NCBI GenBank assembly: GCA_036925085.1
Contig: JAUPFP010000021.1
Coordinates: forward strand, 3,622,027-3,686,026
DNA length: 64,000 nucleotides
Direction: 5' to 3'
From: Brachycybe producta
Lineage: Eukaryota > Arthropoda > Diplopoda > Playtdesmida > Andrognathidae
The notes beneath the pieces are model-generated. The model ran no database searches. It saw nothing but the letters and a program-made list of their open reading frames with translations, and was not told the origin of the DNA. Positions 34,601 to 59,179 of the stretch are shown piece by piece. Positions within the stretch are counted from its first letter, which is position 1. Every line of letters begins with the position of its first letter. A program made the position numbers and the translations under genes.

Positions 34601-35545
34601 TTCAATCGCATCTTCGACGGAACTAAGTGAATACCGATGGAATGGATCGAGATCTAAAACCGATATCCATCCTTTTTTGGAAACGGAAAACATTTCGAGA
34701 CGATTGAAGATCTTCTCTAGTTTCTTATCAATCGTATTCAATGCTTCGTTCATCTGCAAATCGATAAAGATGAACAACTTATATCGTAATCATTTTGTAA
34801 GCTATATGTAAAAGAAACGTAACGGTGATGTTATCGTAATTGCAAGTGTTTTTGCTTGATTCCAACCGTCGTTTCGCATCGTTGACATCGTCTTCCAATA
34901 TTCTGATGTACTTCGAAAGTGAATCGCTGTTAGAACTGTTAGTAAACATCAAAAAAACTAGTCATTAATTAGTTAGTTAACACACGGATAACCGTCATAA
35001 CCTCATTTTCTGCTTTTGTATGGTCAGTATTTGTATCTGTTTATCGTAATTGTCCAATCTCCATTTGAGTTTCAGAACTTCACTTCTATTTTTTTAAAAA
35101 AAAAAAATTTAAACACAAATTATTCCAAAAACAGCTTATTTCTCTCGTTTATAGCATATTAGAAAATGTCATAAAATTAAAATACTGAAGTAATTTCAGA
35201 GTTTTGTCTTCGTTATCTTCAGGTAAAGCGTTGATTTCCTTCAATTGTTGAAAATTCAAAATTTTCTGTCCTGATTTTTCGATTGCATCGTATCTTGAAG
35301 CATTTAAAAAAAACATGATGAGTTATAATTTCTCTGTTTTGCAAGTATATAATTGTGAGAGGTTTTTACCTTGTGATTTCATCTGAACGTAGTATGTTCT
35401 CCGTATGAATATTGTGACAAATCCAATCTAGAAAAGTCGCCAATTTCTTATTACAAAATACAAAATCGATGCTACAATTATCTAAATTCTCTGCTCCAGG
35501 ATAACCCATTTGAGTTAATTTCTCTAAGAATAGTTTGCTACTCAT
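31652..35545 (-). CDS. HAUS3: HAUS augmin-like complex subunit 3, complete 11-exon gene
   Basis: Augmin recruits gamma-tubulin to spindle microtubules; HAUS3 is one of its coiled-coil subunits. Minus-strand exons in order: 35370-35545, 35186-35293, 35002-35085, 34824-34926, 34446-34753, 34249-34383, 34005-34185, 33788-33944, 32802-32943, 32369-32546, 31652-31780. Phases agree throughout and give 566 aa (human about 603). The N-terminus (MSSKLFLEKLTQMGYPGAEN, then a WICHNIHTENIL stretch) matches the HAUS3 pattern of a GYP-x-A-x-N motif and a Trp-containing helix. The rest is heptad-rich coiled coil, and the last exon has the family's LH-...-LYVYF end. Weaker points: exon 4 has two in-frame acceptors 9 nt apart (34,926 or 34,935), and the exon 9 donor at 32,801 (AT|GTCAGA) is weak but is the one that keeps phase. 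It lies head to head with CENP-C copy A. Confidence 0.87.
31878..32256. mobile_element. Long foldback family copy in HAUS3 intron 10
   Basis: About 380-bp hairpin: TTAAGGTGGTTTTAAAGTGT, CTCTCGAACTCTAGATTATT, AGAAACTAGAATGGTAGCTG, ATCTTTCAAAATAAGCTATT; then AAAGTTTATTTTGAAAGATG, CCCTTCTAGTTT and CCGTTTACACTTTAAAA. It is among the best-preserved copies and shows the TTAAGGTGG left end clearly. Confidence 0.75.
33168..33604. mobile_element. MITE-like inverted repeat in HAUS3 intron 8 (family L)
   Basis: Ends GGTGTTCACAAATGAGCGAC and CTCGTTCTAGTTTGTGAACG are imperfect complements. The interior is richer in G+C than its surroundings and has repeated GTGGTTGA and CAACCAC blocks (GCTGTGGTTGAC, GACTGTGGTTGAA, TCGAGTGGTTGGA, CTCAACCACAAA). 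Single copy in the window. Confidence 0.5.
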
Positions 35546-36407
35546 GTCTTCTTTGATATGTCGTTACAAATTACACTTTTAAAGTAACTGTAATATCTAA
35601 AAAGTAACTCATTTGTACTTGAATTTGACAGCTGTTATAATTTAATAAATAACTTTCTACGTTTCCCGCCAAATCGTTGAGGGTGGGGAAACTAACACGT
35701 GATAGGAAATCAACACTCAGTTGTGATACACTACCACTGATAGGAAGTAAGATATTACCTTAATGTTTACGGAGAATGTTGCCATATTGTGTCATTCTGT
35801 TATAATGTGAATAGGGTTTCTTTTTGACACAATATGGTGGTATGAGATACAAGTTTAAATTTCAGTTATTTCTAAAGCAACTACCAAATAATAGTAAAGA
35901 TTGACGCCATTATGTGTCTTTTTTATCATAACATTTATGTATTTTAGATGGACACAATATGGTAGAATGAACTACATGATTAGATGTCAGTCGTAACTTG
36001 CCAGTTTCTCTTAACAGGCATCTGTAGACAGCTTCAGAATTTGTTTGGCTCCGCCCTTTTATGAACGTCAGACCAAATATCAACCAATTCAAAATAAAAA
36101 GAGTGGAGCATGTGACATCAGATTTAGTAATAAACCAATTACAAATTGATGACGCTCATAAAAGAGGCGGAGCCAAAAAAATTGTGAAGCTGTCTACAGA
36201 TGCTTGTGTTTCTCGTATTCTTGAAAGTTAACTGCGAACTTGGAGGGAAGACGAAAATATCATTCGTTTTTTATGCTTTTATTGTGTTATTTCAAGCTTT
36301 TATTGTTGTTTTTATACGAAATATATTCGTTTTCGATCTTGTTTTGTCTGTATGCGACTTAAAAACGACGTGAATTTCAGTGAGAAGAAATTTCATCAAA
36401 ATCGAAA
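35546..36407. promoter_or_regulatory. Divergent promoter region, HAUS3 (-) / CENP-C copy A (+)
   Basis: 862 bp separate the two start codons, of which 194 bp are a MITE insertion. The core contains GCCATATTGTGTC at 35,781 and the mirrored GACACAATATGG at 35,826, then a second pair near 35,905 and 35,951: a roughly 120-bp internal duplication. GCCATATT fits the YY1 consensus GCCATNTT. The same GACGCCATATTGTGTC block lies upstream of copy B at 43,451, showing that the promoter was duplicated with the gene. Transcription from both sides is inferred, not shown. Confidence 0.5.
36014..36207. mobile_element. Foldback MITE, CCGCCC-core variant 2, in the divergent promoter
   Basis: A 194-bp hairpin, ACAGGCATCTGTAGACAGCT to CTACAGATGCTTGT, with GGCTCCGCCC and GGCGGAGCC inside. 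Flanks GTTTCTCTTA and GTTTCTCGTA agree at 9 of 10. The duplicated promoter of copy B reads CAGTTATCTCGTATTC at the corresponding point (about 43,539-43,554) with no insertion, a natural empty site. Confidence 0.9.
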
Positions 36408-39400
36408 ATGCCAAAGGTAAGAAGAAGCAGTTTTCACCCCAAGTTGACACTTTGCCCCAGTTTATATTTTTATTATTACAGATAAGCAACAAGGCTAAGG
36501 CTACGAAGATAACCACGAAACACAAGAAAGGGTTAAAACATTGATTTAATTTAATAATATGTCATTCATAAAATTACGGACAGAAGAAATTAAAGAAATC
36601 TCCGTTTTTGAACGAAAATTTGTAGGATTTTTCAAAGACGGCGATTTTTTTCTTTTTTTTTTTTCTGTGAAGTTCTGTCAGTTTTTTTGTTTGTTTGTTT
36701 TTCGTAACCGGTTACTACTTTTGCGTACAAATGAGGACGTTGCAAGACAGGCATTTAGAAATCGGGACGAACACAAGTTGGCTCCGCCCTTTTTATGACG
36801 ACCGGCAACTTTTAAATGGGTGGTTATGTAATTGACGTCACATGCTCCGCCCTTTTACACATCGAACCACACAACAAACCAATTAGAAGTTGCCGGTCGT
36901 CATAAAAAGGGCGGAGCCAACTTGTGTTCTTCGCGATTTTTAAATGCCTGTCGTTACAAGTGTAACGTTAAAATACAGGCAGTTGGGCGCGGCCATAAAA
37001 ATTCTATTAGCCCCGGCCTTTTATGAGCATCAGACCAATAAGAAACTCATAACAAACAGAATCAAACTTAAATAACCAATCAGAACGAACTTTTCTGGTT
37101 GCACCCAACTGCTTCTGTTAAAATTATTAATATTATAACGCGTCCTTCTTCGAACAACAGGCAAGTAAAGACATTAAGATACAGTCGTTTGCCCCGCCCC
37201 TTTTATGAGGAATGGTAACTTTTAATTGGGTTGTTACGGGGTCTGACGTCACATGCCCCGCCCTTTTCAATTTCCAATTGGTTGATATATATATAAATAA
37301 AAGAGATTTAAAAAAAAAGACCTTTATTTTGCATGAAGAATTATTAAGTTGACAATTTACTGGAAATAAAGAATTAATTGTTCGTTTGTGCTTTTTTTTC
37401 CTGACAGAGGTGAAAATCAGAAGTTGGTCAAACAAACTCTAACATTACCATTTATTCGTTTGGAACAAATTTCTAATGGAAACGGTCGAGGAACGCGTTC
37501 GACGCCGATGCTTAAGAACAAGTATTCGAATCAGTCTCGAAGGAACAAGGCTGTTCGACATGCACGGACGAGGTTAACGAAGCGAATAACGATTTTATCT
37601 TTCATATGTGATTTCACGTTTTTTTTTTGTCATCATGTGTTTGTATTTCAGGTTATCGTACGAAAAGGAAGACAGCGACGAAGACGATCCGGTTGAAAAT
37701 CGTTCACTTATTCCCGATATTTCAAATTTGAAGCGACCGAAACTTCACACGCCTAATCGAGATTTGTCTAAATTGTAAGCAGGTTTGGAACTAAATCTCT
37801 GGTTGCTCTACGTTTTCAAAGAACAACAAATTTTAAAAGTTTATAGAAACTAGAAGAGTAACCAAATTACTTTCACGTTTGACATCTTTAAAAATAGACT
37901 TTTTTTGGCGGCTTTGGATTTTTTTTTTTTTTTCCGACGTTTGGTTCTACCATTACCAAAAGAAAGTTTATTTTTACGTTTCGAATTTGCATTAACAAAG
38001 GGTATCTATAGAAACATTTGTGCCACGTCCACTCTGAATTGGTTTTAATTTATGAGACGCGCCATTGCATGCAGGAAATGAAGACATTCTTGTCTTGCAG
38101 GCTTCAGGTTCACTTGCAATGAATTTTCGAAACGACTCTGTTAACCATTGGTAATTTGGCACGAAAAGTTCCTAAACTTCAGAGGAGTCCAAATTATTTC
38201 TCTTGATTTATTTTACAAAAACAAAAGTAATTCAGGATTAATTATATTTCTAACAAAAAATATATTTAATTATAATTACTATAATTCATTTTTGGCAAAT
38301 TACTTCCTATCAACACAAAAATACCCTCAACTGATTGGGCTACCCTTCGAGTTTTTACAACATATGCAAAGTTTTTCTTTATTTGACTTACGAAAAGCAG
38401 AATATTTAGAGTTCGAGCGACGTTTACACTTTAAAACTAATATACTGTTGCTTTCTAAAGTGGAAAATATAACGAGAGTTTCATTTCGTTCTTTCACTGT
38501 CATATTTTGCAATAGCTGCAACAAATATTTTGAACATAAAAATATTTGTGTTTGTGTTTAGGAAACAAACGGAACGTCTCTCTATTTCAAGCAGTTCCGA
38601 GTTCGACTGTGATGATCTCGGTACGTTTCTCAGTTTATTTTAATAGTTTGCACTATTTTACAGTTGATTTGTTTCGTTTTTCTCTAATAGAAATCGAGGA
38701 CAATGACGATTTTGTGAGATTGAGTTCGAGATCTCCTCGGTCGAAACGGGTGAAAAAGGACTTTTTGGACGAGGATTCCGAAGACGAAGTCGACGACTCG
38801 AATAAGCACAAGAACGTACGAATGGAAAGTATCGCAATGAGGAGCAAAGCGTCGCCTAGTAAACGGCAACTTACGACTAAGAGAAACCAACCAACGCCGA
38901 AGAAATTGAAGGTTATGACGGATAGCGAAAGCAGCGAAGAAGAAAGGTCCGATGGTTCGACGATCGGGATTCAAAGTTTTACGAAGAAAAAAACTGGTCG
39001 CATGTCGAACCAACGGTCGTTAAGCGCAACGCACAAAGATTCGGATTCCGATTTAGAGTGGAGTGCCGGCGAAGAGAAATACGAAGGCAGGACTCGTTGT
39101 ACTTTTGGCTTAAAAAAAACTCAACTTGTATTAACCAATAAAATGTTTTTTGCAAATGCTGATGTAGATAAAAGTACGACAAGCAGCGATTCGGACATAA
39201 TTTCAGAAAACGATTCCGGAAAAAAGGTTAGGTCGTTTAGAGAAGTTCCGAATTTGTCCAAGGAGATGAAGGATGTTCAAGCTGTCAACAAATCCAAGTC
39301 TCGAAATCTCCGTCCTTCTTTCATTTCAAGATCTTCTTTGAAGAGCTCACCTTCATCTGGTGACGAAAGTGATGCATCTCGACAAGACTCGAAGCCGAAA

Positions 39401-41683
39401 AAGAGGCTCTCCAATCGATCGGTCGGTAGCAACGGTGTGAAAACGCAGAACAGCGAATCGAGCGAAGAGGAAACTGATGAAAGCGACGAAGAGAGTGTGG
39501 CATCTCGACAACCTAAAAGGAAGCAATCTGTTCGTGGCATCGGCGCGAACTCCCTGCGCAGTTCTCCTGAACGAAAAAAGCTTGAAAAAGAGGATAGCGA
39601 AGGGAGCGAAGAGGAGACAGATGAAAGTGATGAAGGGAGTGATGCATCTTGGGAGCCGAACAAGAGTGAAGCATCTTTTCAGTCTAAATCGAGGCATTCT
39701 GATCGATCGGTCCGTGGTACGGGTGTGAAGACACTGCGCAGTTGTCCAGCACGAAATAAGCTTAAAAAAGATTATAGGGAATGGAGCGAAGCGGAAACGG
39801 ATGAAAGTGATGATGAGAATGATGCATCTCTGCCGCCTAAAGGGAGGCAATCTGTTGGATCGGCCCGTAGCGCCGGCACGAAGGTGCTGCGCAGGTCTTC
39901 AGATCAACAAAAGCTCAAGAGAGAGACTAGGGACCAGAATGACAAGGAAAGCGATGAAGAGAGCAAAGCATCTCGAGAACCTAAATGGAAGCAATCCGAT
40001 CGATCATTCCGTGGCACGGGCACGAACTTGCACGGTTCTCCAAAACGAAAAAAGCTTGAAAAACAAAATAGAGAATGGAACGAAGGGGAAACCGATGAAA
40101 GTGATGCATCTCGACAGCCTAAAACGAGTCGATCAGTCAGTGGCAGCGGTACAAAGATGCTGCGTAGTTCTCCAGAACATAAGTTTAAAAAGGTGAATGG
40201 GGAACGTACTGAAGAAGAAACAGATGAAAGTGAGGACGAGAGCGATGCATCTCAACAGCCTAAAAGGAGGCAGTCTGTTGGATCGGTCCGTAGCACCGGC
40301 GCAAAGATGTTGCACAGGTCTCCAGATAAAAAGAAGCTTGAAAAAGAGAATAAAGAAAGGGACGAAAAGGAAGCAGATGAAAGTGATGACGATAGTGATG
40401 CATCTTGGAATCCAAAATCGAGACACTCCGGTCAATTGTCTCGTAAAACGGAGACTGGGGAACTTAGCGAAGAAGAAACGGATGAAAGTGATGAAGAGAG
40501 TAATGACGAGAGCGATGAAGAGAGTTATGACGAGAGCGATGAAGACAGTGATGCATCTCGGCAACCTAAAGGGAAGCTTAATGTACGATCGGTCTCGAGT
40601 ACAGGTTCAAAAATGCTGCGGAGTTCTTCAGGACGTAAAAAGTTTGAAAAAGAGAATAGAGAACGGAACAAAGAAGAAACAGATGAAAGTGATGACACGA
40701 GCGATGAAGAGAGTGATGCATCTCAACAGCCTAAAAGAAAGCAATCTGTTCTGTTGGACCCGGGCACCGGCGCGAAGACCGGGCACACTTCTCCACAACG
40801 AGAAAAGCTTAAAAAAGAGAAAGAAAGGGACGAAGAGGAAACGGGTACAAGTGATAACGAGAGTGATGCATCTCCGCAGCGAAAAACGAGGCGATCTGTC
40901 CGTGGCACCGGCGCGAACTCGCTACACAGTTCTCCAGGTTCAAAGAAGCTTGAAAAAGAAAATAAAGAAGGGGACGAAGAGAATGAGAATGATGCATCTC
41001 CACAGCGGAAAACGAGGCAATCAGTCCATGAAGCCGGCATGAAGACTCGGCGCAGTTCTCCAAAACAAAAAAAACTTGACAAAGATAATGAAGAAGGGAC
41101 CGAAGAGAAAACGGAAGTAGGGGATAATGAGAATGATGCATCTCCACAGCGTAAAATGAGACAGTCCGTTCGATCAGTCCGGGCCACTGGTGCAAAAACT
41201 CCGCACACTTCTCCAGAACGAAAAAAGCTTGACAAAGAGAATAAAAAAGAGAACGAAGAGAAAACGAATGAAGTTGATAACAAGAGTATTGCGTCTCGAC
41301 AGCCTAAAACGAGGCGATCAGTTCGTGACAGCGGCGCGAAGACCCGCCTTAGTCTTTCAGAGCAAAAAAAGCTTGAAAAAGAGAATAGAGAACGGAACGG
41401 AAAGAAAACGAATGAAAATGATAACGAGAATGATGCATCTCGACAGCCGAAAACGAGGCGATCCGTTCGATCGGTCCGTGAAGCCGGTGCGAAGACCGGG
41501 CACAGTTCTCCAGAGACAAAAAAGCTTGGAAAGGAGAATAGAGAACGGAACGAAGAGAAAACGGATGAAAATGGTAACAAGAATGAAGCACCTCGACAGC
41601 CGAATACGAGGCAGTTCGTTCGATCGGTCAACGCTTTCGGTAGGAGGTCGTTACGCAGTTTTGCAGGAGATAAAAAAGCTTGA
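36408..41683 (+). CDS. CENP-C paralogue, truncated copy A (no CENP-C motif, no cupin)
   Basis: Exons: 36408-36416, 36482-36531, 37408-37572, 37652-37774, 38562-38620, 38691-41683; phases agree, 1132 aa. Exon number, sizes (9 and 50 nt for exons 1-2), phases and sequence match exons 1-6 of the full CENP-C gene downstream: MPK start, ARTRLSY junction, NLKRP block, DDL-EIEDN-DF junction. Residues from about 350 to the end are some 16 charged repeats of 40-50 residues (TDESDEESDASRQP, SVRG-TG-K, SSPERKKLEKE). It stops inside the last repeat, where one extra G near 41,666 relative to sibling units shifts the frame into TGA. The CENP-C motif that binds CENP-A nucleosomes and the dimerising cupin are absent. 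The 5' part of exon 3 also differs from copy B and lacks its CFDDYF stretch. It may encode a kinetochore-related protein lacking nucleosome binding, or be a gene in decay; the 3-kb open exon favours recent or continuing constraint but repeat composition weakens that argument. Confidence 0.75.
36747..36951. mobile_element. Foldback MITE, CCGCCC-core family, intron 2 of CENP-C copy A
   Basis: A 205-bp hairpin from ACAGGCATTTAGAAATCGGG to AAATGCCTGT. Target duplication CGTTGCAAG (36,738-36,746) and CGTTACAAG (36,952-36,960), one mismatch in nine. The matching position in intron 2 of copy B has no insertion. Confidence 0.9.
36975..37118. mobile_element. Foldback MITE, CCGCCC-related variant 3
   Basis: ACAGGCAGTTGGGCGCGGCC on the left against GGTTGCACCCAACTGCTTCT on the right, about 144 bp. 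Flanking GTTAAAAT is repeated on both sides, an 8-bp or slightly longer target duplication. A related copy surrounds the insertion at 43,010. Confidence 0.75.
37157..37285. mobile_element. Truncated foldback MITE, left arm only
   Basis: ACAGGCAAGTAAAGACATTA with TTTGCCCCGCCCCTTTTATG and TCTGACGTCACATGCCCCGC matches the left arm and centre of the CCGCCC-core family; the right arm is missing after about 37,285. Confidence 0.6.
39358..41660 (+). repeat. Coding minisatellite in CENP-C copy A, about 16 units
   Basis: DNA units of about 120-160 bp are marked by GAAAGTGATG...GATGCATCTCGACAGCCTAA and TCTCCAGAACGAAAAAAGCT. The protein unit alternates an acidic Ser/Asp/Glu run, a basic stretch with SVRG-TG-K, and SSP-R-KLEKEN. 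SDASRQP-like signatures counted: sixteen. Unit length varies by insertion of extra ESDEES acidic steps (for example 40,480-40,550). Confidence 0.9.
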
Positions 41684-41885
41684 AAATGGATGAAATTTCT
41701 AAAGGGAGTGTATCATCTCATGGTAAATTCCGGCTAAAAGCAAAGCAATTCATTAAAGCCGATTGTAGTAACGGTTTTGAGAAGACGTGACACGATTTTT
41801 CGGAACCTAAAAATGGTTCGAAAGTGAACAGAGAACTAGGCTTATATAATATGAAAACGGATAATAACCCTTTTTATTTCGTACT
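41684..41885 (+). pseudogene. Relic of CENP-C exon 6 sequence downstream of the copy A stop
   Basis: After the stop, the DNA still resembles 48,310-48,490 of copy B in the same order: GCAAAGCAATTCATTAAAGC, CGATTTTTCGGAACCTAAAA, ATGGTTCGAAAG and GAAAACGGATAA, but with stops and indels. The resemblance fades near 41,885, which marks the visible edge of the duplicated block. Confidence 0.8.
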
Positions 41886-41994
41886 AAGTGTATATGAAAA
41901 CCTGTTAAACATATGGGTTTGTGCATTTCAGTTGTTTCAGATACATCTATGTTTTGTGATGCTGACTTATAAGGCTCTTTCTTAATTTCAATTT

Positions 41995-42175
41995 TTAGTG
42001 ATCCACTAAGCCCAGTGGTCAACTAATCCCTGTGGTTCATTTAGTTTATTAGTCACCTATACCCAGTGGTCTCTCTTTAGCCCAGTGATCGACTAAGCCC
42101 TGTGTGTCACTTAGCCAAGTGACTCAATTAACTTATTGGTTCACTTATACCTCTGGTTTATTAAGCAAACTATGA
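41995..42175. repeat. Degenerate CACTTAGCCCAGTGGTC minisatellite
   Basis: Variants such as AGCCCAGTGGTCAACTAA, ACCCAGTGGTCTCTCTTT, GCCCAGTGATCGACTAAG and CACTTAGCCAAGTGAC recur about nine times at 15-20 bp spacing just beyond the copy A relic. Confidence 0.7.
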
Positions 42176-42481
42176 TTCATTTTGTTTTTCTAGTTTCTAA
42201 ACCACTTTCTATTTCCTTTAAATGCGTTTCAAGTTAATAATCAAAGTTCTATTATAACAGTATTTTATTTCATTTGCATACGTTGTAATGGTTAGTTAAT
42301 AATAAAAACGTCTCATTTTAATTTATTGATATTATTATTATTGTGACACCCACTCCTGGGGCACCACATGCTGGTGGTGTTGCATCTTTCAGGGGCTGAT
42401 ATTAGCGCCAGATTGAACAAACGTCAAATTTGTCACGTTTATTATTTTATTTTTCGGCTTATTGGCGCTTATTTGGTTTTT

Positions 42482-42896
42482 ACGGAAGCCCTGGAGGCTC
42501 ATGTGTGAAATAATTTTCAACATACTATCTCTGAAATTTCAGAGATACTAAGTCTGAAAAGTGTAATAGTGTTGTAAAGTGTCATAAAAATTAGAAGACA
42601 TCATCAAACAGAATTAAAATAGCACTTTTTACAAAAACAATCACATATAGTTAAAATATTTATTAAATATTGATGAAAATGTACAAAAAGAAGTATAGAA
42701 TTTACAATTTATAAACAAATAATGGTGCAGACACACTCAACCCATTGAATGTATATTGCTCACTTGGAAGTTAATTACTGCTAGCAAGAACAAACCAGCG
42801 GCCATCTTGTGTGAAATTTCAGAGTTAGTATCTCTGAAATTTCAGAGATAGTTTGTTGAGAATTATTTCACACATGAGCCTCCAGGGCTTCCGTAG
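42482..42896. mobile_element. MITE-like element with about 75-bp terminal inverted repeats (family H)
   Basis: The left arm TACGGAAGCCCTGGAGGCTC, ATGTGTGAAATAATTTTCAA, CTATCTCTGAAATTTCAGAG is mirrored at 42,820-42,896 with only a few differences. Both arms also contain the palindrome CTCTGAAATTTCAGAG. The interior is AT-rich and non-coding. Confidence 0.8.
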
Positions 42897-42967
42897 GTTT
42901 TCGAAATTGCGGAGAAGTTTAAGATTTAGCTTCTGTGCAGTAGTGTAGCTAGGTTTTTTGGCGCCAG

Positions 42968-43290
42968 GAGCAATAATCTACAGGCAGATCGGCGCAGCCA
43001 GAAAATTTCACAGGCAATTAGAAATCGGGACGAACTGAAGTTGGCTCCACCCCTTTTTATGACGAACGCAACTTCTAATTGGTTGGTTACGTAGTCTGCC
43101 GTCACATGCTTCTCCCCTTTTCAACGTCAAACCATGCAACAAACCAATTAGAAGTTGCTGGTCGTCATAAAAAGGGCGGAGCCAACGGAAGTTCGTCCCG
43201 ATTTCTAATTGCCTGTGAAAATTTCTGTTAGTAACAAATCTAAATAACTAATCAGAACAAACTTTTCTGGCTGCGCCTAACTGCTTCTCT
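42968..43290. mobile_element. Older variant-3 foldback MITE split by the insertion at 43,010
   Basis: The left piece CAGGCAGATCGGCGCAGCCA and right piece AACTTTTCTGGCTGCGCCTA then ACTGCTTCT are complementary ends of variant 3 (compare 36,975-37,118); the 43,010-43,216 element lies between them. Confidence 0.7.
43010..43216. mobile_element. Foldback MITE, CCGCCC-core family, exact 9-bp TSD
   Basis: A 207-bp hairpin from ACAGGCAATTAGAAATCGGG to TTTCTAATTGCCTGT. Exact target duplication GAAAATTTC at 43,001-43,009 and 43,217-43,225. It is inserted into an older MITE of a related family. Confidence 0.93.
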
Positions 43291-43747
43291 AAAATCTTGT
43301 CATTCTAGGTTTTCCCTCGAAATCCACGAAACGAATCGGAATAAATGTAATACGTGACATAAAAATTACACTTGTTTCTTCTATGCTATTCATGAAGTTA
43401 TTCAAGTACTCATTGAAATATATATTTTTGCTTTTACATCATTGGAGAACGACGCCATATTGTGTCTTTGACAACGTCACGTAATGGAGATATTTTGGAC
43501 ACAAAATGGTGGCATGAACCACACGCTGGTTATATTTCAGTTATCTCGTATTCATGAAAGTTACTGCAACTTGGAGGGGAAGACGAATATCGTTCTTTTT
43601 GTAAGCTTTTATTTATTATGCTATATTTGAATGGTGGTTTTCCTCTTTTTATGCAAAATATATTAGTTTTCGCTTTTGTCAGTCGGCATGCGAGTGTAAA
43701 GCAGCCTGAATTTCATTGACATCTAGGAAATTGCGTCTTTATCGAAA

Positions 43748-46700
43748 ATGCCAAAGGTAAAAAGCGTTTTTCATCCTAAGTTGCGTTTTTTTTTTCATAG
43801 ATTTTATTGTATTATTACAGATAATTAACAAGACTAAAGCTATACGGATAAGCAGGATACGCAAGAAAGGGTTAAAACATTGATTTCATTTAATAATACG
43901 TTATTTTTGTTCAAAAACGGCGGTTTTTTTTTTCTGTCCGTTTTGTGTTCACGTATTTGTCGTTTTTGTTAACCGGTTACTGTTTTTGACAACATATGAA
44001 GACTATTTGTTAGTAATTTATTTTTTGAAGCAATGTGGAGTAATATATTTCTCTGTAGAAATAATTGAGGTAGTTGAACTAATATGGCGTTTTGGTTACG
44101 TTGATATCAACGGAGTGACGCCATTTTAGGACACTTTTTGCTTCAAAAATGTGGATGTAATGTTCTTAGTGGATTAGTTTTCTTGACAGACAACATCATA
44201 ATATAAAAAAAGTGGCGAATTTGACTGAAAATTATTGATTAAATTAACAACTTGTTGAATATGAAGAATAATTGTCTGTATTTGCGTTTTTATCTCACAG
44301 GGAAGATTTTCTTGCCGGAAAAACCGTGCGTAAAAATTCGCTCGGAAAAGAATGTTTCGATGATTACTTCACTGATCAATCGAGCACTTCGATTATCGTT
44401 AAATCGCCGATCAAAGCTCAGAAGTCGGTCGAACGGACTCAAACGTCGCCCGTTATTAACGAGATCGATCGGAATCTTGATTGGAAAACGTCTGCAACTC
44501 CGAAACTCAGCAATAATAAATCTTCAGAAAATGTGGAACGACGTGAATCGCGTACATCTTTTTCAGCTGCAACGATTCCGAAGTCATCGCCTCTAAGGAA
44601 TGAGGCCCTACGAAATGCACGGACGAGGTTAACTAAACGAATAACTATTTTCTCCTCTCTTTCTTCCATACGTAATTTTTCACTTAACAGTTTTTTTTTT
44701 TGGCGGGTATTTCAGGTTATCGTACGACAGTGAAGAATACAACGAAGTCGATGAAAATCGTTTGCACGTTTACGATGTTTCCAATTTAAAGCGTCCGGAA
44801 CTTTACACTGCAAATCAAGATCTGTCTAAATCGTAAGCAGGATGTAACTAGAACTCCGGTTGCTCGTATGTTTTGAAGAACAACTTAGAAGAGGAAAAAA
44901 ATGGTGAACTTTTATAGAAACTTAAATTACTTAAATTCCTAGAATGTTATTTTCATCTTTAAAAATAAACTTTTTATTGTAGTTAGAAGAAGGAAAGTTT
45001 TTGATTTGTTAAATTATGAAACTGCCCTAAAAAGTTCATTTTTAATTACTCTTCTGATTCCTGAAACGCTTAAATTTTTCTTAAGATGTTTTCTGAAAAG
45101 CTGATTATTTTTAAAAAATATACAAAAATTTTAAAAATATTTTTTTTATTTAAATTGGATAATTTTCAAACTCGCATAAAAGGTGTATTTTAAATGATAT
45201 TAACGTGAGCATTCTAGTTTTTAAAACACGTTTTTTTTTTTTAATTTTGCTGAAGATAATCAGACTAATTAGTGTTCAAGGGATGTTACACTTTAAAACT
45301 ACTTGAATGTTGTTTTCTAAAATGCAAAATAACCAGAGTTTTATTACCGGTGTATTCTTTTTTCATTTGCATCTTTTACAATTAGTTGATACTAAAACGT
45401 ATTTTTTTATTAAAATATTTCTGTGTTTAGGAAGCAAACGGAACATCTTTCGATTGCTGGCACTTCCAAGTTTGTGGATGCTATCGTCGATGATGATCTT
45501 GGTACGTAGCTCGGCTTATTTTAATAGTTTGACTTTGTTTAAAAGTTGATTTGTTTCGTTTTTTTTTGTAATAGAAATCGAGGACGATGTCGATTTCTTG
45601 AGACTGGATTTGAGATCTGCTAAGTCGAAACGAACAAAAAAAGTCGAGCAAAAGGGTTTTTCGGACGAGAGTTCCGAAGATGAAGCCAACGAATTGAATA
45701 AACACAAGAATGCACAAAAGGAAAGCTTGACAGCCAGGGAAGAAGCATCGCCTAGTAAACTGACTAGGAAACAACGGACGCCGAAGAAATTGAGCGTTAA
45801 TACGGGCGGTCAAAGCCGAGAAGAAGAATCTTCTGATTCGTCGGTCGATCCTCTACCGAGTTCTACGAAGAAAAAAAGTGATCGTGAGTCGAGTTTGTTT
45901 CACATTAAGAGCGCCATAAAGACGCAGGAACAGTTGTTAAACATAACGGACTCGAAACGCGGCAAATCTCTTGCAAACGAAGACGTTAATTTAGATTTGG
46001 AGTCGAGCGACGGCGAAGTTGTCGCTGAAGATAAGAAAGGCAAGACTCATCGTACATTTGGTTTAAAAAACTCGACTTTTATTAACCAACAAAACGTTTC
46101 TCCCAAATGGCCCTCTCCTTGGAAAATTATATCTACTGTTGCCGATGTAGGTCCAGGTACGACAAGCAGCGATTCGGACACCGTTTCGGAAAAGAATCTC
46201 GCCAAAACTGTTAAATCATTTAGAGAAGTTCCGAATTCACTCAAGAAGAACAGTGTTCAAGCTGTGGATAACTCCAAAGCTGAACCGTCGTCCGTTTCTC
46301 GTAATCGTGATCGTTCTTCTGGTATTTTTAAGTCTCCTTCCAAGTTAGATAGTTCCGTCAAACAAAATGCCGTTCCGATAGCTGCGGCACGACCTCCGAA
46401 AGAATTTATTTCACCCAAAGGTTCTTTCACGAAACCAGTTCGTAGGAGTCTTATTCGTCCTTCTGTGGTGCCGGTACATTTAGATATGAGTTCTCATTTC
46501 GATGCTTTAACGACTTCATGGGGAAGAAATAGACACTCGACGAATAACAAACAGGTTTTGTTGCGTGAATTAGATCCCGAGGTTGTCGAAAAGAACGTTC
46601 AAACACGAAGTTCTAAATTGCAGAAGTTAAAAGAGAAAGACAATGAAGAGAATATTCATAAAAATGACGCTTTGTCGAGTTCTACTGTTTCGGTTGCTTC

Positions 46701-49700
46701 CATGAGAAACCTCAAACGAAGTAAAAATAATCTTTCAAATGAGAAAGAAGAAGAAGCATCTCCTCGGAAATCGCCTCGTTTAGTCGTGGCTGATGTCGAA
46801 CGGGAAGCAGAACCTCCGTCCAGTTACAAAAGTGATACATCTCTAGAAGACTCAAAGCCAAAAAAGGGAAAATCAAGTCGATCTGTTCGTGGATCGGGCG
46901 CGAATACGCTTCACAGTTCTCCAGGACGAAGAAAGCGTGAAAAACAGAATAGAGATCTAGACAGAGAGAAAACGGATGAAAGTGATGAAGACAGTGATGC
47001 ATCTTGGCAGCCTGAACCGTGGCAATCTGATCGATCGGTCCGTGGTGCCAGAGCGAAGGCACTACAGACTTCTCCAGAACGACGAAAGCTTGAAAAAAAG
47101 ATTAAGGAACATAACAAAGAGAAAATGGATGAAAATGATCGACAGCCTAAAACGAGGCAGTCTGATCGATCGGTCCTTGGTACCAGAACGAAGGCACAAA
47201 AGAGTTCTCCTGAACGAAGAAAGTTTGAAAAGAAGAAGATTAAGGAGCGTAACAAAAAGAAACCGGATGAAACTGATGAAGAGATTGATGTATCTCGTCA
47301 GCCTAAAACGAAGCTATCTGATCAATCGGTTCGTGACCTCAGAGCGAAGGCACTACAGACTTCTCCGGAACGAAGAAAGCTTGAAAAGGAGATTAGCGAA
47401 AGTAACAAAGAGAAAACGGATGAAAGTGATGCTGCTCGAGAGCATAAAACGCGACGATCCAATCAATCGGTTTCTGGTACTGGAGTACAGACACTGCAAA
47501 GTTCTCCGAAACAAAGAAAGCTCAAAAAACAGATTGGAGAACGTAATGTAGAGAAAATGGATGAAAATGATGAAGAGAGTGATACATCTCGACAGGCTAA
47601 AACGAGGCAATCTGATCGACCGGTCAGCAGTTCCAGAACGAAGGTACAACATAGTTCTCCTGAACGAAGAAAGCTTGAAAAGAAGAAGATTAGGGCGCGT
47701 AACAAAGAGAAAACGGATGAAAATGATGAAGAGAGTGATGCTTCTTGGCAGCCTGAACCGTGGCAATCTGATCGATCGGTCCGTGGCACCAGTATGAAGG
47801 CACTACAAACTTCTCCGGAACGAAGAAAGCTTGAAAAGGAGATTAGGGAAAGTAACAAAGAGAAAACGAATGAAAGTGATGCTGCTCGAGAGCATAAAAC
47901 GCGACGATCCATTCAATCGGTTTCTGGTACTGGAGTACAGACACTGCAAAGTTCTCCAAAACAAAAAAAGCTCAAAAAACAGATTGGAGAACGTAACGTA
48001 GAGAAAATGGACGAAAATGATGAAGAGAGTGATGCATCTCGACAGGCTAAAACGAGGCAATCTGATCGATCGGTCAGCAGTACCAGAACGAACTCACAGC
48101 AGAGTTCTCCTGAACGAAGAAAGCTTGAAAAGAAGACGATTAGGGAGCGTAATAAAGAGAAAACGGACGAAAATGATGAAGAGAGTGATGCATCTTGGCA
48201 GCCTGAACCGTGGCAATCTGATCGATCGGTCCGTGGCACCAGTATGAAGGCACTACAAACTTCTCCGGAACGAAGAAAGCTTGAAAAGGAGATTAGGGAA
48301 AGTAACGAAGAGAAAACTGATGAAAGTGATGCATCTCATCGCGAATCTCTGCCAAAAGCAAAGCAGCCAGTTAAAGCCAATCGTGGTATTGATAGTGCGA
48401 AGTCGCGAAACGATTTTTCGGAACCTAAAAATGTTTCGAAAGAGAAGAAAGTTGGAAATAATAATACGAAAACGGATAATTTTCCTTTCATTTCTGATGC
48501 CGAGAGTGATTCATTCGATTTTGAGTTGAAAAGGATGCGTTCTGTTCAACAGGATGTTCGGGAACATGGTAGTAGTGGCACCATTCAAAAATCCCACGCG
48601 ATCGAAAAGCAAGTTGACGAACAACAACCGGGACCTTCGGGGATTAAGAAAACAAATAAGACACAATCAAAGAAAAAGGTTCGCTTGTCGATTGTCGAGG
48701 ATGACGAATCGTCGTTAACGAGTACCGATAGTGCATCACTGATGAGCAGTTCGTCATTTGTGAGTAGTGATAGTCGCCACAATGAGATGGCACAATTAAA
48801 GACGAATCCGCCAAGAAATAGTTTGTGTCAGTATTTCGTATCGCTTTTCGTTATAACTAAGGCCAAAAGTTTATGCGAAACGCATGATGATATTTCTAAC
48901 CTCAATTAGGTACCACTGTGATACAATATAAGGCTCTTGTCGACACAGGCGACTTTTGAAACACTTTTCGGCGACATAGTGAAGTCATAGGTTGCTGGGC
49001 TGTCGTTGCAATGTATTTTCTATGGAAAGACGCCAACACAGACGACTTTTTAGCGACAAAAGTTGTCGCCAAAGTTGGCGTCTTTCTATAGAAAATACAT
49101 TGCAACGACAGCCCAGCGACCTATGACTTCATTTTGTCGCCGAAAAGTCGCTTGCGTGCCACGGCCCTAAGAGTGCTGAGTTTGCAATAATCAGTTTAAT
49201 TAATAAAATTTTCATAATCTTCGGAAATTGGCATAATTTTGCATATTTCTTTAAAAAAAACTTTTTGGCCAATTAAGTTGGTTTTAAAAATGTTAGTGCT
49301 AAAATGAAGAAGAAAAAAATAGAAAATATTTTAGAAACTAGAAGGGTAACTCAATCACTTATGGGTATTTTCATTTTTCATGTTGATATCTTTCAATGTT
49401 TTTTATTTTTGTCTATAAAAGTTTACTTTGTTTATTAGCTTAAGCTGCTATTCTAGTTTCTAAAACACTTTTTGGGTTTCTCTTTAATTTTGTTTTTTTC
49501 TGAAAGACTCGACTTTGAATAATCTCGGAGTTTGAAAATCAGCTGTTCTCATAATCTTGCATATTTTACATTTTTTTAGTTGCATAAAAGTGTTTTGGCC
49601 TTAGTTATAAGTTCAATCGACGATGTATCGATTTCAAAACTAACGTTCTTTGTAGATTCGAGAGATCACTTGAAGAGGAATCGATTGCCGCCACTCGAGT

Positions 49701-52700
49701 TTTGGCGGAATCAACGTCCAGTCTATAAACGGAATTCGACAGGAACATTTTCTCTATACACTGTGGACGAAGGTTTTGAACCCATTATTGGTTATGAAAC
49801 AAAACTGGAAATAAAGAAGAATAAGAAGAATGAAAACGTCAATAAGCTTCCTCAACGTACGTCTTTCTCTGATATTGTATTTAATTGTCTTTTTTTATAT
49901 AAGAAAAAGCAACAATTTACAAAATATACAAATTAAATGTGATGATAAAACACAACTTTGATTAGTTTGTGTTTCTCGAGGAAAATGAAGAGAAAGTTTG
50001 AATTGTGTTTTAAGAAACTGGAAGGAGGACTTCCTCAATCATTTAAGGATGTTTTCATGTTGATATTTTTCAAAATAAACTTTTTATGTCAGTTTAAAAA
50101 TGATCCAACTTTAAGAAGACGATAATTTTTGGATGAAAATTTTACTTTGAAAGATAAACAACATAAAAATACAATTAAGTGATTCTAGTTTCTAGCACAT
50201 TTTCAATTTTTCTTCTTCTTAGTGTTGCTCTTACGAAATACAGCATAACCACAATTTTTAAATCAGCCATTCATGAAACATAAGTTTTAGTGATCGAGTT
50301 TTTTTTTTACCCTTCTAGTTTCTAAAACAACTTTGTATCAATTTTATAAGCTCGATTTTTTGTTTTTACACTTCACGTTTGACAAAGAAATCTTTAAAAC
50401 TGTGATTGAAGTGTCAACAAAACCCACATAAATTGTTTTTTGTTGATGTTATTTTAAGCTTCTATTATTCGAAACAGTTTATTTTAAAAGATATTAACAA
50501 GTAATAATTTCTAAACATAATTTACACTTCTAGTTTTTAAAACGTGCACGTGCTGCCATAACAATCTCAATTCTAACTACGAATCTCTCTTCAAATTGAG
50601 TTTTTAACTAGAATTGAAGTTGCAATCGGCCCTTGAATGGTGAAGCCCAGGAATTTACAGGGATTTTTATTTTATGTCCCTTTTTTTTGAATTATGCTAA
50701 TTTGCTAGACCAGTGATTCTCAACCAGGGGTTCTGTGATCCCATGACAGAGGGGGGTTCTGCGAGAATTCACAAAAGCCAAATAGAAATAGCCAATAAAT
50801 ACTCTTGTAATATTTTATTCAAAAGTATGAGTTAATTAATTAATTATTTATTAACTCTACTGCTTTACACGTCTATTTTTGTAATTTACCTCTGTTGAAC
50901 CTAATATGTGTCAGCCAGTGTGTTCCTTGATATGTTCTTCAGGTATTGAGAGAGATTTTCACGGCGTTTTACTTTGGAACCACAAAAATAACCGTGGCTC
51001 GTGCGACTGTGGAGTATTTAGAGAGACTTTTAATTCTTTCTGAAAAAGTATTTTCTCAAAACGTAGACTAATCAGAAGTTAATTTAACTTTTGTTTTATG
51101 TAGCTCCAAAGGCTGTCGTAACAAACAAATCGGACGAAAGTAACGAAAGCGATGTGGCTATAGACATGGAGAATTATTACGTCTCAAAAACTGTGAGGCC
51201 GATTTTAGTTGTGAATCCGATGGATAACGAAGAAGTCTTTGTTGGTTCGTTTTTCATTAGAATGTTATGAGTTTGAAAGAAATGTCATTTGGTGTTTTGT
51301 TTTTATTTATTTCGCCGTTGCTTAAAATTAAAAGATTGTTTGAAAGTGAAAGGCAGTTATAGGTACACGTCTGTGACTGGGAAAGAGTTGCAACCGGAAG
51401 ACACGATTATTGTGGCCAAGCCACTCAGACAGAAAGCTTTTTCTTCGGGTATCATCGTTCTTAAACCCGGTACTGAAAAAGGAATGCACTTTCTCGTTAA
51501 AGACACGATGGTGATTAAGAACACGGTGCAATTAAAAAATTAGACGTGACGGTTTTGATCTCTTTGTTTTTGCTTCTTTTCTAGGTGTTTTGGGTGTTGA
51601 CGGGAACATTGGAAGTTACGATCCACGAAACTACTGTTGTTGTCAATAGGGAAGATTCGTTTTTTGTACCTCTAGGTAATTTTATGTTTTTTGTTTTTGT
51701 TTTCTCAAAATGGGGCTTCGAAGTAGACGCTTTTCAGTTGGTTTTTATACAAACTTCTCTTTATTCTACGTTTTAAAAGCAACAGCCAGAAGAAATCGAA
51801 GATGTTTTCGACACTAAGGGTTGGTTTTTATTACTATACGATGCTAAGCGAAGAATCATTCTCATTTTCGTATCGCTTAGCATCGCAAATTGTTCATTTT
51901 TGTAGCTCTCTTTCGCTTAGTTGGGTTCACACTGAACTTCGCAGTTCGTGTGGAATGCAAAGATTCGTTCACAAAACTCATCAGAACCGCTTTGTTGTTT
52001 TACAAAAACAAAAAGCTGAGCTGTGATTGGCTGTGAAGTTTTTTTTTGTTGTCATTAAAATGATCTAGATTAAGATTTGTTCGAAATATTGTGCGAAAAT
52101 GAAGGTGTGCACAAAGGGGAAAACGTTATTTTATCGCAACGAAAAGTAACGAAAGTGTAAATGTTTGGCTGCATAAGTTAGTTTTTTTCGTTTCGCTTCC
52201 CCCTTTTCACGGCTTTTTCGCCAAGTGTAAACTCCAACCCTTAGAAGACACTAAATGAAACAATTAAAAACTATTTTCGTTGTTAATATCTTTAACAATA
52301 AAATTTTTATGGTAGTTTGAAAATTAATTAAACTTGATGGGGTTTTTTTTTTCATGCTGATAAACAAATGTTTTTTTTTTATTTAATTCTTTACTCGTAA
52401 AAAGTTTATTTTTAAGGATACAAATATGAAACATTTTGAAGTCTATGGTTGTAAGATATAGTGTTGTTTTCTATTGGCATATCGACAGTTGTGAATATGG
52501 TGCCTGATGATTGTCTTGTGCACAGAATAGTTCTGTGGGTTTCATAAGCCTATTGTGCGTTGTGGGCATTGCAGGTTTCATGGGCTTTGTGGGTCTGGTG
52601 GGCTTCATCGGCTGGGTCCAGTGTAAAGTTTCATGGGCTGAGCTGGGCTTCAGATTTGTACACAACGTAAAATCGGAGCCTATGCTAGACATATGACAGT

Positions 52701-53323
52701 CTTATTGTCTTTCTGTAATGAGTACTAATGACACCCAGAGGGATGTTGAAACTTATTTTATTCGGACATATACAATCCAAATTGTTGATTTCAAAAGTAG
52801 ATAATAAACCATTATAAGTTGGGCCAATTGGGTAACAAAAGTAAAACCTGTTCTACTTCTATCCAGCAAAAGCAAGTGCAATTCAAAGTGCAGGTTGAAG
52901 CCCTAAAGAATATTTATATTTTCTACTGCTGTACGTTATCTCGACATTAAGGTTGTGAGCATGGTTGAACTGGTTTCAATTTTGTTTATTCCAAATTCCG
53001 GTCAATCAAACTGTGTATTATCGCCTCTCAGACACTTGAAACAAAAGATTTATCAAAACATTTGGCTTTTGTCATTTGTTTTAAACTGTTGAGAACTTTT
53101 GTGAGATCGTCCCTTTTTTTTCTGCCTAAATTTTTATTCCATCCCTCCTGTGGTGAAAAATGTATTAAAAAATTTAACGAATGTTCTTATTAATATTATT
53201 ATTATTATTAATATTTGTTATTGTTTTCGTCTCTCTTTTTTTCTAGGCAACAAGTATAATATACGGAATATTTCGGAAAAGAAGGCCTCGAAACTTCTGT
53301 TCTTTCAACATAGAGGAGATTAA
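43748..53323 (+). CDS. CENPC: Centromere protein C, full-length copy B
   Basis: Inner-kinetochore scaffold linking CENP-A nucleosomes to the outer kinetochore. Exons: 43748-43756, 43821-43870, 44301-44627, 44716-44832, 45431-45501, 45575-48820, 49656-49856, 51104-51244, 51335-51510, 51585-51675, 53247-53323; all phases agree, 1501 aa (human 943). The signature CENP-C motif starts exon 7 at about residues 1276-1297: RDHLKRNRLPPLEFWRNQRP, with the Arg pair and Trp that contact the CENP-A nucleosome. The C-terminal cupin dimerisation domain fills exons 9-11 (about 1388-1501), with GT-EKGMHFLV, VFWVLTG-LEVTIHET, DSFFVPLGN-YNIRN and a LLFFQHRGD end. The N-terminal region has ECFDDYF (37-43), possibly the Mis12-contacting region by position. 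Extra length comes from about 11 charged repeats in exon 6. The start is the same short MPK exon as in copy A. Introns 6, 7 and 10 hold MITEs. Confidence 0.94.
46810..48345 (+). repeat. Coding minisatellite in CENP-C copy B, about 11 units
   Basis: Units of about 50 residues carry KTDESDEESDAS(R/W)QP, QSDRSV-GT and SSPERRKLEKE, clearly related to copy A's units. Three unit subtypes (AAREHKTRR, SRQAKTRQ, SWQPEPWQ) recur as a block: 47,431-47,880 and 47,881-48,330 are near-identical 450-bp tandem copies, a higher-order repeat that copy A lacks. Confidence 0.9.
48925..49170. mobile_element. Foldback MITE family G in CENP-C copy B intron 6
   Basis: Hairpin with ends AGGCTCTTGTCGACACAGGC and AAGTCGCTTGCGTGCCACGG; inner arms CGTTGCAATGTATTTTCTAT / ATAGAAAATACATTGCAACG are perfect complements. 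A second copy lies at about 62,930-63,085. Confidence 0.8.
49290..50345. mobile_element. Long foldback family copies around CENP-C copy B exon 7
   Basis: One copy at 49,290-49,540 (TTAGAAACTAGAAGGGTAAC ... GCTATTCTAGTTTCTAAAAC) ends just before exon 7; a second at about 49,970-50,345 lies in intron 7. Exon 7 itself (49,656-49,856) is not part of either. The entry span covers both and the exon. Confidence 0.6.
50709..50800. repeat. hAT-like terminal fragment
   Basis: CAGTGATTCTCAACCAGGGG followed by TTCTGTGATCCC resembles the CAGTGGTTCTCAACC termini common in animal hAT elements. No matching opposite end was found nearby. It lies in intron 7 of CENP-C copy B. Confidence 0.5.
51814..52244. mobile_element. 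Inverted-repeat element (family J) in CENP-C copy B intron 10
   Basis: Ends CTAAGGGTTGG and CCAACCCTTAG, 11-bp perfect complements 430 bp apart. Inside, CGATGCTAAGCGA and TCGCTTAGCATCG (about 51,839-51,893) form another perfect 13-bp pair. Target duplication unclear. Confidence 0.6.
52525..52650. repeat. Degenerate GTGGGCTTCATGG minisatellite, second locus
   Basis: GTGGGTTTCATAAGCC, GTGGGCATTGCAGG, TTTCATGGGCTTTGTGGG and TCTGGTGGGCTTCATCGG follow one another at about 15-bp steps, the same family as 28,470-28,677. It lies in intron 10 of CENP-C copy B. Confidence 0.6.
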
Positions 53324-53671
53324 AAGAAAGTGATCACTGTTGTCGAGGGAGTCCTTCCTTCTCTCGCGTTTTGTAGATATGTTTTATTGTTTTCCAATTT
53401 TTCTTTAGCTGCGGTTAGTAAATTTTTATTTTAATAATTAATCTTTAAGATGAAATTTTCAATTGTTTCAAATTTGTTGTTTTCAACTTTGGCCTTGAAT
53501 GTGTTGTCACAGGGAGACGATTTACGAACAGTGAACTATTAAAGTGTATTTTTAAGAAGTTACAAAGTTTACCACCGTGTGTAATTGATTCTAATTTTTT
53601 CTTTTGCTTGTTGACTGTGGCTTTTGGTGGAGCAGAACTTCTAAAAGTAACAACGACGAACGCTCTCGATC

Positions 53672-59179
<5,508 letters not shown>

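Follow-up and report, generated by a model that had tools for sequence, protein, structure and literature searches.

The stretch analyzed, referred to as the window, is 64 kb of the millipede Brachycybe producta (contig JAUPFP010000021.1, positions 3,622,027 to 3,686,026, forward strand), with 33% guanine and cytosine (GC) and zero N. It contains two CENP-C-type genes in tandem, both on the + strand, between a HAUS3-like gene and a PAP2-like gene. The upstream gene is a partial copy (copy A) and the downstream gene a complete one (copy B). Their main parts, in window positions, are as follows.

43748–53323, + strand: copy B, predicted full CENP-C, 11 coding exons, 1495 amino acids (splice-site model; Pfam and PDB matches)
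43748–43756, 43821–43870, 44301–44627, 44716–44832, 45431–45501, 45575–48820, + strand: copy B exons 1–6 (splice-site model)
49656–49856, 51104–51244, 51353–51510, 51585–51675, 53247–53323, + strand: copy B exons 7–11 (splice-site model)
49656–49856, + strand: copy B exon 7, CENP-C nucleosome-binding motif (RNRLPPLEFWRNQRPVY; phmmer alignment to the solved CENP-C chains 7by0_K and 7xhn_C)
51353–53323, + strand: copy B exons 9–11, Mif2/CENP-C cupin (PF11699)
36408–41683, + strand: copy A, CENP-C-derived gene, 6 coding exons, 1132 amino acids (splice-site model, open frame)
36408–36416, 36482–36531, 37408–37572, 37652–37774, 38562–38620, 38691–41683, + strand: copy A exons (splice-site model)
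39437–41656, + strand: copy A repeat array, 15 units of ~51 amino acids (units covering at least 39 model positions)
46915–48405, + strand: copy B repeat array, 10 units of ~51 amino acids (same threshold)

Judged by its matches, copy B is a full CENP-C. Its last ~240 residues match PF11699 with an E-value (E) of 9.1e-19 and 68 bits (cut-off 29), and the general cupin model also matched. Across the CENP-C motif and the cupin, it aligns with solved CENP-C structures (best chain, E 3.9e-21). Residues 1–220, the part in which an N-terminal Mis12-complex-binding segment was looked for, gave zero Pfam or PDB sequence matches, both searched up to E 10. The model is least certain about where exon 6 ends and where exon 9 begins; the exon 6 end was placed at 48820, and the phase-1 alternatives 48730, 48826, and 48868 score equally (5 of 9 consensus positions).

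Exons 1–6 can be placed in both copies, and the intron phases are 0, 2, 2, 2, and 1 in each. The splice donors are closely similar, including two unusual GTTAA donors per copy. These unusual donors, GTTAAA or GTTAAC, lie at 36532, 37573, 43871, and 44628 and are common to both copies. Exons 1 and 2 measure 9 and 50 nucleotides (nt) in A and B alike, whereas the later exons differ in size: 165/327 nt (A/B) for exon 3, 123/117 nt for exon 4, 59/71 nt for exon 5, and 2993 (with the stop)/3246 nt for exon 6. The differences in exons 3–5 (162, 6, and 12 nt) are all divisible by three. Upstream of the repeats the alignment covers 341 residues, of which 179 are identical (52%), and it leaves ~157 residues of copy B exon 6, directly before the repeats, without a counterpart in copy A. 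The 5′ flanks are also duplicated (36211–36410 and 43544–43750, 73% alike). By exons, intron phases, flank, and residue identity, copy A descends from a CENP-C gene. An earlier reading of this DNA, the first-pass annotation, had proposed a partial tandem duplication of CENP-C, upstream region included, giving a 1132-residue paralogue with neither motif nor cupin and with exons 1–6 equal to those of copy B in number, phase, and size. The shared same-strand exons, the phases, the flanks, and the length given by the splice-site model all agree with it; the claim about size holds for exons 1 and 2 and fails for exons 3–6.

The nucleosome-binding motif and the cupin are the defining parts of CENP-C, and Pfam and PDB matches place both in copy B alone, as had been claimed. 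The motif does not occur in copy A, whose frame closes at 41683; a BLAST comparison of 35000–42950 with 42950–54000 placed no piece on copy B exons 7–11, and the longest + strand frame within 41684–43440 has 64 codons and lacks the motif. Nor did copy A yield a cupin: zero Pfam families were found for its exon-6 open reading frame (ORF, 38546–41680) or its first 436 residues, and its N-terminus likewise matched no Pfam family. The features behind the copy A frame are listed below.

41684–41880, + strand: B-like exon 6 remnant behind the copy A stop, out of the A frame, with one stop in the B-like frame
42301–42306, + strand: AATAAA, candidate poly(A) signal of copy A, 618 nt past the stop
41881–43443, no strand: junction from the homologous part of copy A to the copy B flank, with hairpin elements (resembling miniature inverted-repeat transposable elements) at 42481–42895 and ~43010–43216

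The manner in which copy A ends does not bear out the first-pass view that a breakpoint within exon 6 truncated it from birth. A comparison of 41500–41535, 41650–41690, and 48255–48295 indicates that the last repeat unit carries an extra base near 41666, which shifts copy A into the stop at 41681–41683. Local alignment with copy B exon 6 extends the homology 197 nt past this stop, to 41880 in A and 48494 in B. Because recognizable exon-6 sequence runs on to 41880, the copy A protein was formerly longer and was shortened after the duplication. The remnant has a GC content of 0.345, against 0.461 in copy A exon 6. The end of homology at 41880 fits a breakpoint in exon 6 and a later 3′ deletion equally well; from there, 1.56 kb with two hairpin elements leads to the copy B flank. 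A tandem duplication leaves the ancestral flanks on the outside; therefore, copy A would hold the ancestral 5′ flank beside HAUS3 and copy B the ancestral 3′ end, so that neither is simply “the copy”.

Introns 1–5 being in equal phase, every A-to-B junction between neighboring exons is in frame, and a phase-1 donor-like site lies at 40230, one of four sites scoring at least 7 in or just behind copy A exon 6. Both copies could then form one transcription complex, in which A exons are partly spliced into B and provide alternative promoters or N-termini for a shared motif–cupin end. We consider this quite unlikely: the duplication by itself accounts for the shared phases, with no need of a function, a donor scan with one phase-1 site in four is too little support, and copy A has its own stop, followed by AATAAA.

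The synonymous divergence (dS) between A and B is 0.52–0.73 by four methods, and half of it, ~0.26–0.36, is taken as the copy A branch. The duplication is old, as judged from the 52% amino-acid identity and the dS of 0.5–0.7. Tandem near-copies often attract assembly errors, and a second haplotype or a mis-joined locus might be mistaken for two genes; such an artefact is highly improbable here, given 68% nucleotide identity over aligned codons, a window free of N, and exon sizes, hairpin insertions, and repeat arrays that differ between A and B. A haplotype artefact was rejected on the divergence itself, which is too high.

Copy A also does not have the form of a decayed gene. It keeps five introns, in contrast to a processed (retro) pseudogene, and its modelled exons run to 41683 with no stop or frame break of the kind expected in an unprocessed one; decayed sequence is found only behind its stop, which lies in the last exon. 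Zero stops occur across its 1132 codons. A neutral model with the local base composition, started from the present sequence, predicts 193 stops per substitution per site, i.e., about two per 1% divergence. The probability of finding no stop is then 0.15 at 1%, 0.02 at 2%, and 8e-26 at 30% divergence, and the 95% bound on neutral divergence is 3/193 = 0.016, or ~4–6% of the copy A branch. Since the frame is stop-free, an old pseudogenisation of copy A is excluded under this model; the exclusion does not extend to a recent loss. Given the splice model and the neutral model, this shows that copy A was coding through nearly all its history. The first-pass annotation had allowed for a pseudogene, to be recognized by missing transcripts together with a ratio of nonsynonymous to synonymous divergence (dN/dS) near 1. 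The stop-free frame speaks against an old loss and leaves a recent one compatible, and the pairwise dN/dS of 0.52 (bootstrap 0.40–0.70; no value of 1 or more in 500 replicates) lies below 1 but mixes the A and B branches. As proof of selection on copy A, a dN/dS below 1 was rejected because the value averages both branches.

A search of a protein collection at E 0.001 gave zero matches for copy B residues 1195–1495 or residues 45–290 of the copy A exon-6 ORF, and zero for residues 1–420 of the copy B exon-6 ORF among the 7978 candidates sharing most words. Because no other animal CENP-C matched copy B, the collection probably holds few animal proteins, and it is uninformative on the spread of copy A.

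In both copies an array of ~51-residue repeats makes up much of exon 6; of 34 model matches, 25 were kept as units (at least 39 model positions) and nine shorter ones left out. In a FastTree phylogeny of the units, those of copy B cluster together (support 0.95) with two A units adjoining, and the other 13 A units fall elsewhere. Within the copy B array, 47139–48332 has a higher-order period of 450 nt, equal to three units, with 92% matches. This part probably grew after the A–B split, because the likeness among the period copies far exceeds that between A and B.

Both arrays are rich in candidate phosphorylation sites. Nine patterns were counted and compared with 500 residue shuffles. The CDK1-type pattern [ST]Px[KR] occurs 11 times in A (shuffle mean 2.0) and 15 times in B, and the Polo-docking type S[ST]P seven times in each (1.4 in A shuffles); 0 of 500 shuffles reach any of these counts. 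The acidic pattern [ST][DE]x[DE] occurs 24 times in A, against 9.4 in shuffles (0 of 500), and seven times in B, which is not beyond all shuffles. KEN occurs seven times in A, against 1.0 in shuffles (0 of 500), and never in B. The seven KEN of copy A lie in its repeats, at 40343–41533. This difference between the copies may stem from very few substitutions.

Copy A is best read as a paralogue of CENP-C that has been retained, evolves fast, and is unanchored; it may act as a phospho-scaffold. In this reading, part of CENP-C was duplicated in tandem long ago, which gave rise to a separate gene that retains the presumably ancestral 5′ flank, the N-terminal region, and the repeat array and is devoid of the nucleosome-binding motif and the cupin. 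Since CENP-C reaches centromeres by way of its C-terminal part, the anchorless copy A should not hold centromeres on its own. Its repeats, with their CDK1-type, S[ST]P, and acidic sites, would bind mitotic kinases or kinetochore partners, by which copy A would modulate or compete with CENP-C. To the reading of copy A as an unanchored CENP-C derivative, soluble or partner-recruited, that modulates or competes with CENP-C, we assign a probability of roughly 0.5. Copy A is probably still expressed, as far as its sequence indicates. The phospho-scaffold would make use of what copy A has kept, and it has a precedent: a passage of PMC10156168 describes an STP motif of C. elegans CENP-C, at T163, that is primed by CDK1 and through which PLK-1 is bound and recruited. 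A more specific version seems unlikely: a long-kept stand-alone paralogue without any centromere-binding module, serving as a cell-cycle-regulated scaffold, in which the repeats dock CDK1-primed Polo kinase and the KEN boxes clear copy A at mitotic exit, so that kinase recruitment and chromatin anchoring are divided between two neighboring genes.

Several points weigh against an unanchored, retained paralogue. The evidence consists of the sequence of one locus. In Drosophila oocytes, according to a passage in PMC10721191, the C-terminal half of CENP-C loads and the N-terminal half is not detected. The pairwise dN/dS is a mean of both branches, and a constrained B with an unconstrained A could yield 0.5. 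Among all copy A repeat units, dN/dS is 0.50 (0.40–0.58), a value in which part of the divergence may predate the A–B split; in a clade of seven A-only units it is 0.66, with an interval (0.39–1.07) that runs past 1. Gap lengths in multiples of three are favored in exons, with Fisher p values of 0.11, 0.09, 0.02, 0.03, and 0.005 at five alignment settings, i.e., significantly at some settings only and not at the first. Neither protein shows an excess of the broad [ST]xx[DE] pattern (45 in A against 47.3 in shuffles), and the repeats inflate all site counts and make them interdependent, as one ancestral site becomes many. Furthermore, copy A is missing two blocks of copy B exon 3, which span 36 and 20 residues of the alignment, and exon 3 is the least conserved among exons 2–6 (22 of 53 aligned residues). 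The missing blocks lie near the N-terminus, the usual site of Mis12-complex binding in CENP-C. The same losses bear on the idea that copy A is a competitor and, as an N-terminal CENP-C without an anchor, titrates outer-kinetochore partners; a passage in PMC9252888 leaves room for such a role, which we nevertheless find unlikely, given also that neither N-terminus has a Pfam family and that of copy B matches no PDB chain.

Two further points against retention would suit a dying gene, one that was coding until recently and has now lost its function under relaxed constraint. First, the aligned exon parts show an identity of 0.784, close to and below the 0.802 of alignable introns and flanks; the order is the same at all five alignment settings, in a comparison biased by choosing only alignable non-coding parts. 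Second, the [ST]SP site is kept in 10 of 10 B units and in 7 of 15 A units, so copy A has lost sites. The fast divergence of the amino-acid sequence (52% identity over 341 aligned residues) and the frame change that removed the end of copy A, with a decayed remnant behind the stop, point the same way. Against a dying gene stand 1132 codons without a lesion, intact modelled splice sites, and the generally fast evolution of CENP-C in plants and animals described in part of PMC549713. We regard it as possible but somewhat unlikely. If instead an anchorless derivative has been kept by selection, the remaining CENP-C would have a job of its own, separable from centromere anchoring. The adjoining genes A and B would then be a natural experiment on the roles of CENP-C parts, and a case of a centromere-protein duplication whose paralogue cannot simply replace its parent.

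The flanks and the short repeats around the two genes have the following arrangement.

35778–36407, + strand: copy A 5′ flank, with two inverted-repeat elements, a hairpin insertion (~36019–36205), and then sequence homologous to the B flank
35778–35841 and 35903–about 35962, + strand: GACGCCAT...ATGG-type inverted-repeat elements of the copy A flank
43451–43747, + strand: copy B 5′ flank, with one GACGCCAT...ATGG-type inverted-repeat element (43451–43513) and the homologous leader
36019–36205, 36746–36952, 42481–42895, 43010–43216, 48963–49148: short hairpin elements around and inside both copies

With up to three mismatches, GACGCCATATTGTGTC has five matches in the window, against 0.20 expected, and all five lie inside the two flanks. 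It forms an arm of a short inverted repeat that occurs twice before A and once before B. An extra GACGCCAT occurs at 44117, inside copy B intron 2, so the element may be a small repeat instead of a promoter part; its GCCAT core presumably resembles YY1 sites. The hairpins at 36747–36951 and 43010–43216 belong to one family and are 85% alike. At 35369–36408, the HAUS3-like gene stands head to head with copy A, with ~0.86 kb between the start codons, and a two-way promoter may be common to this spindle gene and the kinetochore gene copy A.

Regarding the neighborhood, Pfam was run on ten ORF fragments of the window and gave matches in three: a protein kinase (+ strand, E 3.4e-10), HAUS3 (− strand, PF14932, E 9.5e-4), and PAP2 (+ strand, E 5.4e-4), the latter two under the family cut-off. 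A fourth fragment resembles an auxilin J domain (PDB match, E 6e-22), which together with the kinase match suggests a GAK-type gene. Two lipid-phosphatase-like ORF pieces, 56573–56881 and 62533–62811, are alike and share DTC.PDFT.INCSEG, suggesting that this neighbor is also in tandem duplicate; only the second gave the PAP2 match, which is under the family cut-off. An Rfam scan of the window found zero families at gathering score.

The first-pass statement that CENP-C is usually single copy is broadly right, as a passage in PMC549713 calls it single-copy, but duplicates and partial duplicates have been published. Among the closest known cases is C. afra hcp-3L8, which, in the relevant part of PMC9577544, is a partial duplicate of CENP-C 5′ exons without the motif and with the parent kept; it is built from hcp-4 exons 1–3, exons 1–2 in two copies and exon 3 partial. 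That piece is fused to CenH3 and has a demonstrated transcript, whereas copy A is stand-alone, with its own 5′ flank and stop, and is known from sequence. Second CENP-C genes are also described in sections of PMC12724597 for Drosophila Cenp-C1/Cenp-C2 and for D. vulcana, D. birchii, and D. punjabiensis. Cenp-C1/C2 and the D. vulcana pair retain key motifs, while copy A is without both modules; the D. birchii duplicate is tandem, young, and near-identical, while copy A is diverged. D. punjabiensis has an incomplete copy near the Cenp-C1c locus. Drosophila CENP-C fragments are judged there not to be intact, unlike copy A, a diverged partial copy with a long intact frame. In grasses, exon duplications and CenpcB (part of PMC549713) resemble the present case in that tandem duplication enlarges the central part of the protein, which evolves fast; the difference is that these duplications lie inside one gene or are paralogues, and a truncated copy in Sorghum bicolor is described as a pseudogene. 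The PLK-1 receptor HCP-4/CENP-C of C. elegans (passage in PMC10156168) likewise has a CDK1-primed S-T-P docking site in its N-terminal part; there a single site was tested, and here an array of candidate sites is predicted. A literature search by listings and abstract openings found no stand-alone CENP-C paralogue lacking both modules, which does not establish its absence in print. Compared with these systems, the unusual feature of the present locus is a stand-alone, strongly diverged partial copy of CENP-C that is without both defining modules and yet has a long intact frame.

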